Origin: a virus
Strand: one strand, 5' to 3'
DNA: 54,187 nt
Virus record (IMG/VR): IMGVR_UViG_3300044655_000545
Coordinates: 1-54,187 of that record
In this document: positions 3,478 to 24,703 of the stretch, one piece after another
Numbering within the stretch: position 1 is the stretch's first letter
How the letters are laid out: every line of letters begins with the position of its first letter
The notes under the pieces: model-generated
Told to the model about the DNA's origin: nothing
The model's input: only the letters and a program-made list of their open reading frames with translations
Database searches by the model: none
Made by a program: the position numbers and the translations under genes

Positions 3478-4461
3478 TTATTTCCGTTTCTGTTGTTTGT
3501 CATATTCTGCGAACTTGCGAATCATTTTGTTTCGCTGCTCAACGTTATCCCACATGCCCGCCTCTTTAATGGCGGCAACGCGCTTAGGGTCAACGATGTA
3601 TTCGTTGGCTCTTGTCGTCGCTGTAGTATCACGTCCTGAACTTGTCACAACAGACCTCGGTCTCTGGTTTCTCGTACCATTACTATACCCCGAATTATAT
3701 CGGTGTGGTAAATATTTTTGCAATCTGTCGTCGAGCTCATCCCAATAGTCGGGAAGTGCTGGGTCGTAGCCTTCTTCGGTCAACGCCACGTCAATGGTCT
3801 GAGCAATCTTAGAATCTGCGTCCTTCAATTGGGGGTCATACCACTTATTCTTATCGATCCAATCTGAGGCCATTTTCTGGACCATTGGATCGGGAAGTTT
3901 GATGTTCTGCGAGGATTGCGAAAGCTGCTTGTTAGCATTTTCACGCAATGACTGCAAAGACTCTAAATGCCGCTGGCTATCGTACCAGAGCTGCTGAGCT
4001 TTGGTAACTTCTTCACCATTTCGAGCATTGACAGCCTCTTGTAGCTTCATTTTGGCGTACTCAAGCCTTGTACCAGCATCATCAATGGCCTTGTCGACCC
4101 TTGCTAGCTCGGCACCAGACGTGCGTTTCTCCAAAAGAGCTACTCGCTCCGCCATTTGCGAGTTTTGTTTTCGCAATGCCGTGATTAAATGATTAGATTC
4201 ACGGGCTTTTTCACGATGAAGTTGCTTCTTAAGCTTTCTTTCTTCACGTCGAGCGGCACGAATGGCCTCTCTTTCCGGATCGTCTGTGGTAGAACCTTCA
4301 CCATTGTCATCTCCGAGTCCCTCAGCATCATCTGATGCATCAGATATGCCATCTTCGTCATCATCAGACTGGGGATTTGACATTCCTTCGGGTAGTTGCG
4401 CAATCGCAGACCCGTCTTTGGTCTCATCGACCTGCATTTCCAACTTTTCAGTTGCATTCAT
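3478..4461 (-). CDS. putative scaffolding protein
   Basis: A 327-residue protein with typical scaffold architecture. The N-terminal 65 residues are strongly acidic (many D/E, DDDEDG). A long charged coiled-coil region covers roughly residues 65-185 (RREERKLKKQLHREKAR onward). A helical segment follows, and the C-terminal tail is basic (QRNKMIRKFAEYDKQQKRK). P22-type scaffolds bind coat protein through a short basic C-terminal helix, consistent with this tail. The gene lies between the co-chaperonin/portal group and the capsid gene, the usual scaffold slot. The start at 4461 has the TTTGAAAGGA ribosome site. No protease motif is visible, so the scaffold may be recycled rather than digested. 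Confidence 0.75.
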   Translation of the reverse strand: MNATEKLEMQVDETKDGSAIAQLPEGMSNPQSDDDEDGISDASDDAEGLGDDNGEGSTTDDPEREAIRAARREERKLKKQLHREKARESNHLITALRKQNSQMAERVALLEKRTSGAELARVDKAIDDAGTRLEYAKMKLQEAVNARNGEEVTKAQQLWYDSQRHLESLQSLRENANKQLSQSSQNIKLPDPMVQKMASDWIDKNKWYDPQLKDADSKIAQTIDVALTEEGYDPALPDYWDELDDRLQKYLPHRYNSGYSNGTRNQRPRSVVTSSGRDTTATTRANEYIVDPKRVAAIKEAGMWDNVEQRNKMIRKFAEYDKQQKRK

Positions 4462-22052: not shown

Positions 22053-22796
22053 ATGTCTAAAAATCAAATCGCGTTGTTTGAAGATCAACTTGCCGCCTTG
22101 GCCATTGAATCGGTTAAGGCCGAGCAAAGCAGCCTCGCCACGGCATTTCTTTCCACCAAGGGGGGTAACCTCACATACCGTGGTGATGTAATCACTGGCA
22201 ACAAGCTGGCCTGCGTCGTATTGGCAGCTCCCATTGAGCGTCTGTACTACAGCAGCCGTTATGATCCTACCAAGGTCACAGGCCCTGATTGCTTTGCCAT
22301 CAGCGCAACGGCAACAGGCATGGCTCCCTCATCCGCGTCGCCTGCAGTTCAGCACACAACCTGCGAAGGCTGTCCTAAGAATGAGTGGGGCTCCGCGCCG
22401 AATGGCGGTAAAGGTAAAGCTTGCCGTGAAACACGCCGCTTGCTTTTGATTCCTGCTGATAGCATTGGCAGTGTTGATGCTGTCAAGGCTGCTGAGGTTG
22501 CTGCATTGCGTCCACCTGTTACCAGCTTAAAGAACTATGCAACATACGCGCAAACACTTGCTGCTACGTTGAAGCGTCCTCCACTGGGTGTGATCAGTGA
22601 AGTTGCTGTTGCACCTGATGCCAAGACACAGTTCAAGGTAGTCTTCAACATGGTCAAGGCCATTGAAGATAATGCTGTCATTGGCGCATTGATTGAGCGT
22701 GCCAAGACCGAAGTGCAGAAGGCCATTGACTCGGCCGGCGCTATCAACGAAGACTCTGAAGCAGCACCTGCTGTTGAAGGCAACCCTAAGTACTAA
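22053..22796 (+). CDS. putative ssDNA-binding protein with cysteine cluster
   Basis: A 247-residue protein. A central cysteine motif, CEGCPKNEWGS followed by GGKGKAC (C-x2-C and a third Cys), lies at about residues 108-130 and could bind zinc. The C-terminus is acidic (INEDSEAAPAVEG), a feature of phage ssDNA-binding proteins such as T7 gp2.5 and T4 gp32, although the final residues are not acidic. The location just before the polymerase supports a replication role. I recognise the cysteine motif from phage replication clusters, but the ssDNA-binding assignment is inference. AAGGA precedes ATG 22053. Confidence 0.65.
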   Translation: MSKNQIALFEDQLAALAIESVKAEQSSLATAFLSTKGGNLTYRGDVITGNKLACVVLAAPIERLYYSSRYDPTKVTGPDCFAISATATGMAPSSASPAVQHTTCEGCPKNEWGSAPNGGKGKACRETRRLLLIPADSIGSVDAVKAAEVAALRPPVTSLKNYATYAQTLAATLKRPPLGVISEVAVAPDAKTQFKVVFNMVKAIEDNAVIGALIERAKTEVQKAIDSAGAINEDSEAAPAVEGNPKY

Positions 22797-22803
22797 GGGA
22801 TAT

Positions 22804-22873
22804 GGGGCGGCACTGGGAAGCTGCTAGACGCTGTTGGACGTGTTCCAACTGTAAGTGCCCTTTAAGTCGCCCC
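22804..22873 (+). ncRNA. structured RNA leader before DNA polymerase
   Basis: GGGGCG (22804-22809) pairs with CGCCCC (22868-22873). Directly inside, GCACT (22810-22814) pairs with AGTGC (22854-22858), with a 9-base bulge on the 3' side. Within the loop, GTTGGA (22833-22838) pairs with TCCAAC (22844-22849). The element ends 9 bases before the preferred polymerase ATG at 22883, which has no Shine-Dalgarno. It may be a cis-regulatory leader, for example a site of polymerase autoregulation. Alternatively the bases are coding, if translation starts at ATG 22802. Confidence 0.45.
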
Positions 22874-22882
22874 ACCTACATT

Positions 22883-24703
22883 ATGAAACCTGTCTATCTT
22901 GATTTTGAAACAATGGCCATTGGCCCACGGCCGGAGTATCCTCCTGTGCCAGTTGGCTTGGCCGTCTACGACCCTGAAGGTGAATACCCAGACGGCTACC
23001 ACGCCTTTGGCCACCTTACAGGCAATAACACAACGCAAGCAGCTGTTAAAGCTATGATGGAGCTTATCTATGATAGTGGGAGAGATATTTGCTTTCATAA
23101 CGCTATGTTTGACCTTGATGTTGCTGAGACGCATTTGGATGTACCCATCCCACAGAACACCACAGTCATACACGATACTCTTATACTTGCTTTTCTCCAC
23201 GATCCACACGTACAATCTTTATCATTAAAAGACTTGGTTGTTACTTGGAGCTTGGACACGCCTAATGAAAGGGATGAGCTGAAGGAGTGGATCCTTGCTA
23301 ATGTTGATGAGGCACGTCGTAAAAAGTCTACATGGGGTGCATACATCTCCCGCGGCCCCGTGGAATTGGTAGGCAAATACGCCGCAGCTGACGTGCGGCT
23401 TACAAGCAAGCTTTATGAGTATCTTATCGAGCAGGTTTTACCCGCACAGCAGGAGGCTTACCACCGTGAGGTGGCTTTGATTCCAATGTTGCTTGAAAAC
23501 TCGCGGTTAGGCGTAAGGGTTGATCGAGTCGGTTTGCAAAAAGCAAAAGAGCAAGCAGTAGTAGATATTGAAAAGTGTAATGTTTGGGTTCGCGCATTGT
23601 TAGGTTCTCCTGATTTGAATCTTGACAGCGATAAAGAGCTGGTCAATAGTATTTATCCCACAGAATACTGGTTGAAAGATAATGGGTGGCCTACCACGGA
23701 TAAGGGCCAGCCTAGAGCCGATAAAGAAACATTTGAAGAACTAATCACACACGCGGAGTTAAAAGATGTCCTCAGATATAGAGCCAACCTATCAACATGT
23801 TTGTCAACTTTCATTGAGCCCTGGTTACAAGCTTCTGCATCTACAGGTCGAATCTACACAAACTGGAACAGTGTACGAGGTGAACGTGGGGGTACACGAA
23901 CCGGCCGACTCTCCTCAACACCCAACTTTCAAAATGCGCCTGTCCGTTATCCGAAAGTTACCCTCCCCCCTGCTTTGGAAGTTGCACCCCTCCCGCTCAT
24001 CCGCAGCTTCATCCTAGCCGATGAAGGGCATAAGCTAATTGCATGTGACTTCAACGCTCAAGAGTTGCGTATCTTTGCGCACTTTGAAGGTGGTGATTTG
24101 ATGAAGCAATACCAAGCCGATGCACGTGCTGATCTGCACACTTACGCTGCCAAAATGATGACCGAGGCCAGCGGCCGTGAGGTGTCAAGGACTTACTCCA
24201 AAGGCGTATCATTTGCTATTCTCTACGGCGCTGGGCCTAAGAAAATCAGTGAAATGCTTGAGGTAGACTATGAAATGGCAAAGACATTGATGGATGCATA
24301 TACCACCGCCGTGGCTCCGGGCCTCAAGACGATGCAATCAACCATGCGGACAAGGTATAAATTGAACCAACCATTGAAAACCATTGGCGGGCGTCTTATC
24401 AAGATGGAACCGCCTAAGATTATCAATGGCCGTCTGCGTGAGTTCGATTACAAAGGGGTTAACCTTTTGATTCAAGGCTCCGCGGCTGATCAGGCCAAGG
24501 CTGCCATGCTGCTGTATCAAACCAAGCGGCAAGGCAGTAGGCTTCTACTTAGTGTGCATGATGAGCTGGTTATCTCAGCTCCGGAAGAGCACGTTGAGCG
24601 TGAGGCTGAATGCTTAACATGGTCTATGTGCAATGCATTAACGATGGATGTGCCTATGGTCAGTGATTACAAAATCGGCAATACGTATCAGGAGGTCAAA
24701 TGA
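22883..24703 (+). CDS. polA: family A DNA polymerase with 3'-5' exonuclease
   Basis: A 606-residue replicative polymerase. The exonuclease domain shows DFET near the N-terminus, FHNAMFD around residue 71 and the YAAAD motif near residue 166, completing DEDDy. The polymerase domain has motif A ACDFNAQELR (about 388), motif B SKGVSFAILYG (about 439) and motif C SVHDELV (about 557). There is no 5'-3' exonuclease domain, as usual in phages. The position equivalent to E. coli Phe762 is Phe. Starting at ATG 22802 would add 27 residues rich in cysteine (CWTCSNCKC) that look like translated leader, so ATG 22883 is chosen, though it lacks a ribosome site. Confidence 0.93.
   Translation: MKPVYLDFETMAIGPRPEYPPVPVGLAVYDPEGEYPDGYHAFGHLTGNNTTQAAVKAMMELIYDSGRDICFHNAMFDLDVAETHLDVPIPQNTTVIHDTLILAFLHDPHVQSLSLKDLVVTWSLDTPNERDELKEWILANVDEARRKKSTWGAYISRGPVELVGKYAAADVRLTSKLYEYLIEQVLPAQQEAYHREVALIPMLLENSRLGVRVDRVGLQKAKEQAVVDIEKCNVWVRALLGSPDLNLDSDKELVNSIYPTEYWLKDNGWPTTDKGQPRADKETFEELITHAELKDVLRYRANLSTCLSTFIEPWLQASASTGRIYTNWNSVRGERGGTRTGRLSSTPNFQNAPVRYPKVTLPPALEVAPLPLIRSFILADEGHKLIACDFNAQELRIFAHFEGGDLMKQYQADARADLHTYAAKMMTEASGREVSRTYSKGVSFAILYGAGPKKISEMLEVDYEMAKTLMDAYTTAVAPGLKTMQSTMRTRYKLNQPLKTIGGRLIKMEPPKIINGRLREFDYKGVNLLIQGSAADQAKAAMLLYQTKRQGSRLLLSVHDELVISAPEEHVEREAECLTWSMCNALTMDVPMVSDYKIGNTYQEVK

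Follow-up and report, generated by a model that had tools for sequence, protein, structure and literature searches.

What does the gap at 22797–22882 of the viral record IMGVR_UViG_3300044655_000545 (IMG/VR) encode? The gap lies within the 54,187-nt stretch analyzed here (positions 1–54,187 of that record, henceforth the window), and is bounded by the stop codon TAA of an upstream gene (22794–22796) and by ATG 22883, from which a DNA polymerase of family A can be read. The preliminary description of this DNA had proposed two readings, a structured RNA leader and a cysteine-rich extension of the polymerase, and had expected only one of them to be under selection. This expectation is borne out: the RNA carries compensatory base pairs, and the protein frame carries no sign of selection. 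Judged from the comparison of related sequences, the hairpin in the gap is real, and it is RNA, not protein.

The Polymerase Start and the Cysteine-Rich Frame

The absence of a ribosome site ahead of ATG 22883, pointed out in the preliminary description, is confirmed, for the 15 nt that precede it (CGCCCCACCTACATT) contain no Shine–Dalgarno sequence. The protein read from this codon begins with an MKPVYLDFET-type sequence, and an M[KQ]P(V/I)(Y/F)LDFET-like start is found at the same place in most relatives, by which ATG 22883 is identified as the correct start of the polymerase. The other frame that had been described, starting at ATG 22802, also exists (translation MGRHWEAARRCWTCSNCKC); it is open, with AAGGG ending 2 nt ahead of its ATG, as would suit an N-terminal Cys-rich extension of the polymerase. 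Its conservation is another matter. Among the related loci that we retrieved (the best 80 of 178 in IMG/VR), 26 have polymerases 95–99% identical to that of the window (L001–L025 and L047), and comparison of up to 40 residues upstream of the polymerase in each finds the Cys motif in none of them, nor any other conserved protein extension. The upstream open stretch has no ATG, GTG, or TTG in 18 of the 26 (including L022, which reaches only 16 nt), and a stop occurs within 12 codons in 11. Moreover, the T that creates ATG 22802 is unique to the window among the rows of the RNA alignment presented below, and other copies of the same RNA stand ahead of different genes. Selection on a Cys-rich extension thus finds no backing in these relatives; on their sequences the extension is accidental and not a conserved feature, and a functional one is hardly credible.

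Fold and Covariation of the RNA

The RNA predicted in the gap, which we call class B, has a nested consensus structure of two hairpins joined on a closing stem (table 1). Its folding strength alone is modest when the whole region 22790–22900 is considered (z −1.0, with 34 of 200 shuffles equally stable); the segment 22803–22875 folds at −30.3 kcal/mol (z −2.48, equaled by 2 of 200 shuffles). A covariance model of the class, R2, which was trained on 16 sequences including that of the window, scores 102.5 bits at 22803–22875 and has no second match in the window, where the element is consequently single.

The covariation analysis that the preliminary description had called for was carried out and supports a structured RNA. 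RNAalifold recovers from 16 sequences a P1 stem of 8 bp, P2 and P3 stems of 3 bp each, and P4. With the addition of a further record, L337, the alignment comprises 17 records, 15 distinct rows, and 300 pair cells, of which 98.0% pair, the letters of the outer stem having been fixed by the search pattern in 15 of the 17 records. Changes on both sides are seen at four pairs among the 15 distinct rows, one in each of P1, P2, P3, and P4 (table 1), three of these four compensations each coming from a single sequence. None of 500 shuffles reaches either 98.0% pairing or four such pairs, and controls in which the structure was slid along the alignment attain at most 70.9% and one pair. The pair at columns 32–46, in P4, is unpaired in 5 of the 15 distinct rows.

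The hairpins that had been described earlier are therefore partly retained: the six-pair hairpin GUUGGA/UCCAAC is the covarying P4, but the 11-pair interrupted stem gives way in the covarying fold to the 8-bp P1. We reconstructed that longer stem as 6 + 5 pairs, GGGGCG/CGCCCC and GCACU/AGUGC, both of which are present in the gap. Over 16 records it pairs in 95.8% of cells and has one both-sides pair, located in the shared six-pair hairpin; its inner half shows zero compensation and has one pair broken in 4 of 14 rows. It may still form as an alternative fold of the element. The minimum-energy fold of the window sequence considered by itself was rejected, with 90.1% pairing and one both-sides pair versus 97.9% and three for the consensus fold.

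Table 1. Features predicted in and around the gap ahead of the polymerase gene
Feature	Coordinates	Strand	Basis or remark
Putative SSB-like gene, 247 aa, phrog_27714	22053..22796	+	Stop 7 nt ahead of the RNA
UAAGG overlapping the stop codon	22794–22798	+	Sole Shine–Dalgarno-like stretch near the polymerase start; not general among relatives
Class B structured RNA, 70 nt, two hairpins joined on an 8-bp stem	22804..22873	+	R2 model, 16 other records, pair counts
P1, 5' strand, pairs with 22866–22873	22804..22811	+	All 8 pairs kept; C-G to U-A at columns 6–67 in L337
P2, 5' strand GGG, pairs with CCC 22858–22860	22815..22817	+	G-C to A-U in L334
P3 hairpin AGC/GCU, 8-nt loop	22819..22832	+	A-U to G-C in L335
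P4 hairpin, GUUGGA/UCCAAC, six pairs	22833..22849	+	G-C/U-A exchange at columns 33–45
P1, 3' strand	22866..22873	+	Pair counts in the class B alignment
RCC tail (ACC), unpaired, directly behind P1	22874..22876	+	RCC counts in class B and long class A
DNA polymerase of family A including a 3'-5' exonuclease, start ATG 22883	22883..24703	+	PF00476 E 1.2e-57, PF01612 E 2.2e-7

Distribution of Class B and the Gene Upstream

An exact 20-mer from the window matches seven other IMG/VR records, a gapped class B pattern retrieves 15 records, and two inner-only patterns retrieve 14 stretches, of which one (L337) is new. The RNA is thus found in 16 other phage records, always with a length of 70 nt and with 95% column identity. 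A stop codon on the same strand lies 5–9 nt upstream in all 16, at a distance similar to that in the window, the upstream frame of L324 being shortened to 46 aa by the end of the contig. Ten of the 16 upstream proteins were scanned, and eight of these are SSB-like; seven belong to phrog_27714 and one each to phrog_112 (Gp2.5-like SSB), phrog_2402, and phrog_9528, while the six unscanned proteins resemble the scanned ones by their ends. The downstream genes vary between records. Judged by its start sequence, the next frame is polymerase-like in 5 of the 17 records including the window, and the representatives that were scanned are polymerases, primases, MazG-like proteins, and proteins of unknown function. 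By its genomic position, class B is an intercistronic RNA of the sense strand that separates the stop of a gene for an SSB-like protein from the replication genes that follow, and its recurrence extends to several unrelated upstream families, SSB or SSB-like in most of those scanned.

How firmly can the upstream protein of the window itself be called an SSB? It matches phrog_27714, a family of unknown function, with E 5.5e-18; searches of Pfam and NCBIfam with this protein return no match (in NCBIfam none of 10 scanned proteins has one), and a sequence search of the PDB has no match at E ≤ 1. Its AlphaFold model (pLDDT 75) yields nothing below E 0.45 in Foldseek. With VIA-align, where Z below 8 is suggestive only, the model gives middling values throughout: 7.9 for the top structure, the phiC31 RDF (9teh_I), 6.6 for the RB69 SSB core (2a1k), 6.1 for the T4 gp32 core (1gpc), 5.5 for BRCA2-DSS1, 5.1 for the gp32-Dda complex, and at most 4.3 for the remaining rows. 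Distant homologues of the protein have acidic C-terminal tails such as ADWDTDD and DEWDDEE, a habit of SSB proteins. Together, model and tails suggest a protein that is SSB-like, not a proven SSB.

The linkage of the elements to SSB-like genes raises the possibility of autoregulation, in which the SSB-like protein or a partner would bind the RNA and repress or stabilize its own message or the one downstream. The resemblance of the upstream protein to gp32 cores, middling in Z as it is, is consistent with this, and the gp32 proteins of T4 and RB69 do repress their own translation (PMC535899). The element, however, lies behind the gene and not at its start; the same 70-nt RNA follows several upstream families, all of which would need to recognize it; and the gp32 operator is a pseudoknot (PMC3014915). 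We consider such autoregulation improbable.

The Same Slot in Close Relatives

Among the best 80 of 178 loci, class B is absent from all 26 closest relatives of the window. The gap ahead of their polymerase is hypervariable (24 of them measure 41–135 nt), and yet a hairpin closed by a G-run and a C-run stands in it in the loci whose sequence extends that far upstream, L016 containing 91 nt and L022 only 16 nt. Most of these slots have the form GGGG-GAAA-GC...RAGUA-CCCC, some with GAAC or CGGUA variants, and define a second class, which we call class A; other folds fill the slot in L005, L011, L014, and L018. When the slot hairpins are folded singly, their z values range from −3.58 to about zero, those of L014 (+0.59), L018 (−0.29), and L048 (−0.10) being no better than shuffles; the piece of L005 was folded without its 5' stem. 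On these predicted folds, the slot that holds class B in the window is occupied in relatives by structurally unrelated hairpins, of class A and others. Two slots deserve separate mention. In L005, the 80 nt that lead up to locus position 397 contain, in our own reading, two T-arm-like hairpins resembling tRNA 3' halves under a 9-bp stem, and in L056 and L063 the slot before the polymerase is taken by a compact GGGGC-UUCG-GCCCC hairpin with UUUU behind it, which looks like a terminator.

The presence of a hairpin between stop and polymerase ATG in these close relatives, including loci with other upstream genes (L011, L018–L021), speaks for a polymerase leader, either an operator to which the polymerase binds, of the T4 gene 43 type, or a looping-out of the gap by the hairpin, whereby the UAAGG at 22794–22798 would serve ATG 22883, as in T4 genes 25 and 38. 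That this ATG has no Shine–Dalgarno sequence of its own agrees with such a leader, and split sites are known in T4 (PMC3014915). Most copies, however, stand ahead of other genes, many downstream genes have their own Shine–Dalgarno sequence after the hairpin, and polymerases that are 80–86% identical can lack it altogether (e.g., L031–L034 and L051). The preliminary description had singled out an autoregulatory RNA of the gene 43 type; this is unsupported since the element goes with the SSB-like gene and not with the polymerase, the next frame being polymerase-like in so few class B records and the UAAC loop being absent. A leader of either type is distinctly improbable.

The Class A Family

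Class A elements, in which the basal part forms a GAAA/RAGUA internal loop and the heads vary freely, are much commoner than class B. This internal loop matches the bulged-G (loop E) consensus. Two patterns for this class give at least 120 matches each in IMG/VR. A loose pattern, with a paired 4-mer of at least three G/C around GAAA...RGTA, has, in the sampled loci, 341 matches, 268 of which are GGGG..CCCC; four of its controls give 65–127 matches without an excess of GGGG..CCCC, and the AAAG control, which overlaps the real motif, gives 386. A strict scan requiring GAAA, RAGTA, and RCC returns 106 matches, with stems GGGG in 101, GAGG in 3, GTCC in 1, and GGGC in 1, versus 0, 0, and 3 in the controls and 102 in the AAAG control that overlaps the motif. 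Our class A sample contains 149 distinct elements of 24–117 nt. Changes on both sides occur at three of six pairs, and G-U is present in 14 of 46 cases at one pair, which argues that class A acts as RNA of the sense strand; the stem letters are biased toward GGGG because the sequences came from patterns. Heads such as those of L233, L257, L270, and L273 contain recurring modules common to elements in different contexts, for example GG(G/A)UACG(C/U)CC with a covarying second hairpin.

A covariance model of class A, R1, has 32 matches at E ≤ 1 in the polymerase loci (the best 80 of 178); all are plus-strand matches, and no locus has more than one. Its best score in the window is 9.9 bits (E 3.6), which is no match, and the copy in the window therefore does not belong to class A. 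The two classes keep apart in our samples: no class A is found in 16 class B records, of which some are short, and no class B in 39 long records with class A, many of all these records being fragments; R2 finds class B in five of five class B records searched.

The gene context of class A is similar to that of class B. Of 222 distinct contexts, 175 have their longest upstream frame on the same strand, 7 have it on the opposite strand, and 40 lack a frame of at least 80 aa; the element begins 4–9 nt after the stop in 121 of the 175. Mechanically called open frames of at least 100 codons include the element on the same strand in 22 of 222 and on the opposite strand in 63 of 222, which speaks against an exclusively intergenic location. 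We grouped 172 upstream proteins into 29 clusters, each labeled from one scanned representative. Fifty-nine fall in the family cluster of the window's upstream gene, which is not an independent sample because it includes loci chosen via the polymerase search; a further 15 are SSBs of phrog_18154, 9 are Enc34-type SSBs, 4 are SSBs of DUF669/phrog_6015, 14 are acidic-tailed proteins (many ending in IPF or VPF) without a family match, and 1 has a DDDIPF tail. On this reading, 102 of the 172 would be SSB or SSB-like. The others include 29 PD-(D/E)XK exonucleases, 6 Pam3_Gp34 proteins, 6 of phrog_9528, and 2 capsid proteins. As a rule there is one class A match per record (34 of 39 long records).

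Both classes appear to be uncatalogued. Rfam 15 has no family above gathering in the window, and in 34 further loci, ten of class B, it recognizes only tRNA, Betaproteobacteria-1, and int-alpA, none of them on an element; nor did we find a publication title describing either RNA class in the literature. The window element, when searched against phages and plasmids, has only partial matches of 18–32 nt (E ≥ 0.5) or none, and the same applies to the single class A element that was searched against phages. Bacterial genomes contain no match to the long class A pattern and 11 matches of 45–71 nt to the class B pattern, which most likely are due to chance, R2 scoring at most 21 bits on the 9 of the 11 that it lists. 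The Rfam RNA Betaproteobacteria-1 is located at 2885–3005 of L107 and at 4267–4389 of L193, a hint of betaproteobacterial hosts.

R1 has no match beside the polymerases of two named phages, ctUtU524 and AXL_3. In the siphovirus ctUtU524 from Manatee Spring (MW202621.1; L349, 1709–1830), a G+C-rich stretch of structured appearance and without Rfam match follows an unannotated frame ending in RY. In Stenotrophomonas phage AXL_3 (MT536174.2; L350, 2196–2274), the gap behind AXL3_43, which ends in SRKY, contains GCCGACC...GGTCGGC and then ACT, possibly a cultured counterpart of the element.

The RCC Tail

If unlike folds occupy one slot, what do they have in common? The larger slot RNAs share a stem that begins with G and is directly followed by unpaired RCC. 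RCC follows the closing stem in all 17 class B records (14 ACCT, 3 GCCT) and in 97 of 103 contexts of long class A, or 75 of 81 distinct elements, versus a background of 5.7% after any CCCC (796/13941) and 4.4% after random G+C stems (73/1678). It is less regular in other elements (18/31), in those of TTCACATA type (9/17), and in short class A elements of less than 36 nt (11/58). Closure by a G+1–C72 pair followed by unpaired RCC, a trait of RNase P substrates, is present in 17/17 class B and 97/103 long class A. Pairing between the base at N−1 and the first tail base is rare: the two are C and A in 71 of the 103 class A contexts and in 12 of the 17 class B records; in the window they are U and A, as also in 12 of 103 class A. 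After RCC the next base is T in 78 of 103 long class A and 17 of 17 class B, and hence the tail is mostly not a full CCA. A stem and RCC alone prove nothing, since a stem of at least 7 pairs followed by RCC is found at 20 places in the window, and we discarded this combination as a search key for the same reason.

Tandem pairs or triples occur in L097, L120, L167, L193, L202, L204, L243, L265, L269, L274, and L285 (of which only L265 is among the 39 long records), and thus a single copy is a rule, not a law. In the tandems inspected for their linkers, ACC and then a short stretch, for the most part rich in T, come after the leading units; in L097, L120, and L167, CTCC takes the place of ACC behind the second and last unit. 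Such CTCC-ended units and the scarcity of RCC in short class A imply either that these units act otherwise or that the tail is inessential.

Several arrangements are worth recording for themselves. The minus strand of L193, around locus positions 1772–1927, carries three dissimilar hairpins in succession, all with ACC behind them; one of the three is a class A unit with the closing stem GTCC/GGAC. In L243 (1511–1579) and L265 (1399–1467), an element of the type GGGGRGATGCGTACTCC...GAGGCAAGTCYCCCC-ACC, the hairpin arms of which covary between the two copies, occurs in tandem upstream of a class A element. In L204, L269, and L285, an ordinary class A element forms a tandem with a longer unit that resembles class A and has GGGGCC/GGCCCC or GGCC/GGCC as its closing stem. 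In L259 (6541–6679), a class A element followed by ACCA is joined at once to tRNA-Gly(TCC), an arrangement like that of a two-tRNA precursor. Only two tRNAs are found in 337 loci (2.75 Mb), this one and another in L113 that is not near an element.

A Possible Punctuation Mark for RNase P

Because a G-first stem with RCC is the simplest common denominator of the unlike folds, we propose that they mimic the acceptor end of tRNA. The element would then be a processing signal that parts the mRNA of the SSB from that of the replication genes; this is the reading we prefer, at a confidence somewhat short of even. In outline, the element would imitate the acceptor end of a tRNA precursor, and host RNase P would dock on RCC and cut on the 5' side of the G-rich stem, close after the stop of the SSB gene. 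The cut would free the SSB message, the message for polymerase or primase would keep a folded structure at its 5' end, and the two could thereby be expressed and decay independently. Recognition would need only the stem, its stack, and RCC, which could explain why the rest of the element is variable and can be swapped.

What is known of the enzyme is partly consistent with this proposal. According to PMC11143913 and PMC12710915, R73-C74-C75 pairs with GGU in the P15 loop of RNase P RNA; the enzyme also processes mRNAs, pre-4.5S RNA, and phage RNAs; and an aptamer pseudoknot is cut, at low efficiency, only once an RCC-bearing trailer is added. In one model system, C at N−1 induces shifts of the cut site, the aptamer there being cut far less efficiently than hairpins. 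The base at N−1 is mostly C in the elements, which counts against the proposal, as do the T after RCC, the short elements poor in RCC, the slot hairpins that fold no better than shuffles, the contexts behind exonuclease and capsid genes, and the lack of class B in the 26 closest relatives.

The main rivals are the autoregulation of the SSB considered above and a plain barrier to decay, in which a stable hairpin at the 3' end shields the SSB message from 3' exonucleases, its sequence being otherwise free. The location of most elements 4–9 nt behind stop codons, their G+C-rich closing stems, and the freedom of class A heads to vary all agree with a barrier. It would not need, however, the near-invariant loops of class B, with their 95% identity, nor the GAAA/RAGUA loop, nor unpaired RCC, and we regard it as rather unlikely. 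Another possibility is that the element, once released, works in trans, as a small RNA, a decoy of tRNA-targeting defense, or a regulator, or else that it is a single-copy replication signal. Its usual presence in one copy per record, its swappable modules, and its location among replication genes would be compatible with these roles; a fixed distance to the stop of one gene and the mutual replacement by unrelated folds point instead to a local role, and the sense-strand G-U pairs speak against a signal at the DNA level. There is little probability for any of them.

Returning to RNase P, a wider form of the proposal, which we advance with clearly more doubt than the processing signal itself, is that uncultivated phages share a slot behind an SSB-like gene for interchangeable, unrelated RNAs, mostly one per genome, the larger of which would be RCC-tagged, tRNA-mimicking punctuation that passes the early transcript to the host enzyme, perhaps releasing hypervariable small RNAs. 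If RNase P does read the elements, phages would punctuate their replication transcript with mimics of tRNAs, as mitochondria punctuate theirs with real ones, and would have a simple way of setting the ratio of SSB to polymerase. Apart from mechanism, there are here two apparently uncatalogued RNA families with a common genomic address and a common tail, and the element may serve as a sequence tag for SSB-type genes of unrecognized families in uncultivated phages.

Comparison with Known Systems

Two ordinary explanations of a hairpin behind a gene were set aside. The element is not an intrinsic terminator, its CCCC being followed by ACCUACAUUAUG without a U run, nor a tRNA gene, ARAGORN finding none in the window and RF00005 having no match at gathering.

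Among phage regulatory RNAs, the operator of gene 43 in T4 and RB69 is similar in being a hairpin upstream of the start of a phage DNA polymerase; in contrast, the present element is linked to the SSB-like gene upstream, precedes a polymerase of family A, and has a different fold, with the loops CGUGU and UGCUAGAC, no UAAC-type loop, and no overlap with a ribosome binding site. The T4 gene 32 operator is likewise comparable, in that a possibly regulatory RNA is carried by the message for a gp32-like SSB. That operator is, however, a pseudoknot at the 5' end, at gene 32's own translation start, whereas the window element comes 7 nt after the stop of the SSB-like gene. The split Shine–Dalgarno sites of T4 genes 25 and 38 have a hairpin between a possible Shine–Dalgarno sequence, here UAAGG, and the AUG. 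This layout is present in the window, where UAAGG precedes the hairpin and the AUG lies 9 nt after it, but is not general among the copies; unlike those hairpins, the element is larger, conserved in sequence, and often followed by a Shine–Dalgarno sequence.

By context, the nearest printed relative is STAXI (RF01728), a structured RNA often near SSB genes, with a different fold. According to PMC2864571, STAXI usually consists of tandem pseudoknots, often with UUCG loops; the copy in the window is single and has no pseudoknot repeat. RF01728 has no match in the window at gathering; a search with this family by itself gave no signal anywhere, its controls among them.

In the tail, the closest resemblance is to the RNase P substrates that are not tRNAs. 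4.5S RNA ends in a stem of G-run and C-run and then ACC. These substrates (pre-4.5S RNA, tRNA-like, and RCC-tagged RNAs), as presented in PMC11143913 and PMC12710915, have in common with the element a closing stem that begins with G and is followed by unpaired RCC, the rest of the fold being tolerated. The element differs from them in lying between phage genes, in having usually ACCU instead of ACCA, and in that its cleavage is a prediction.
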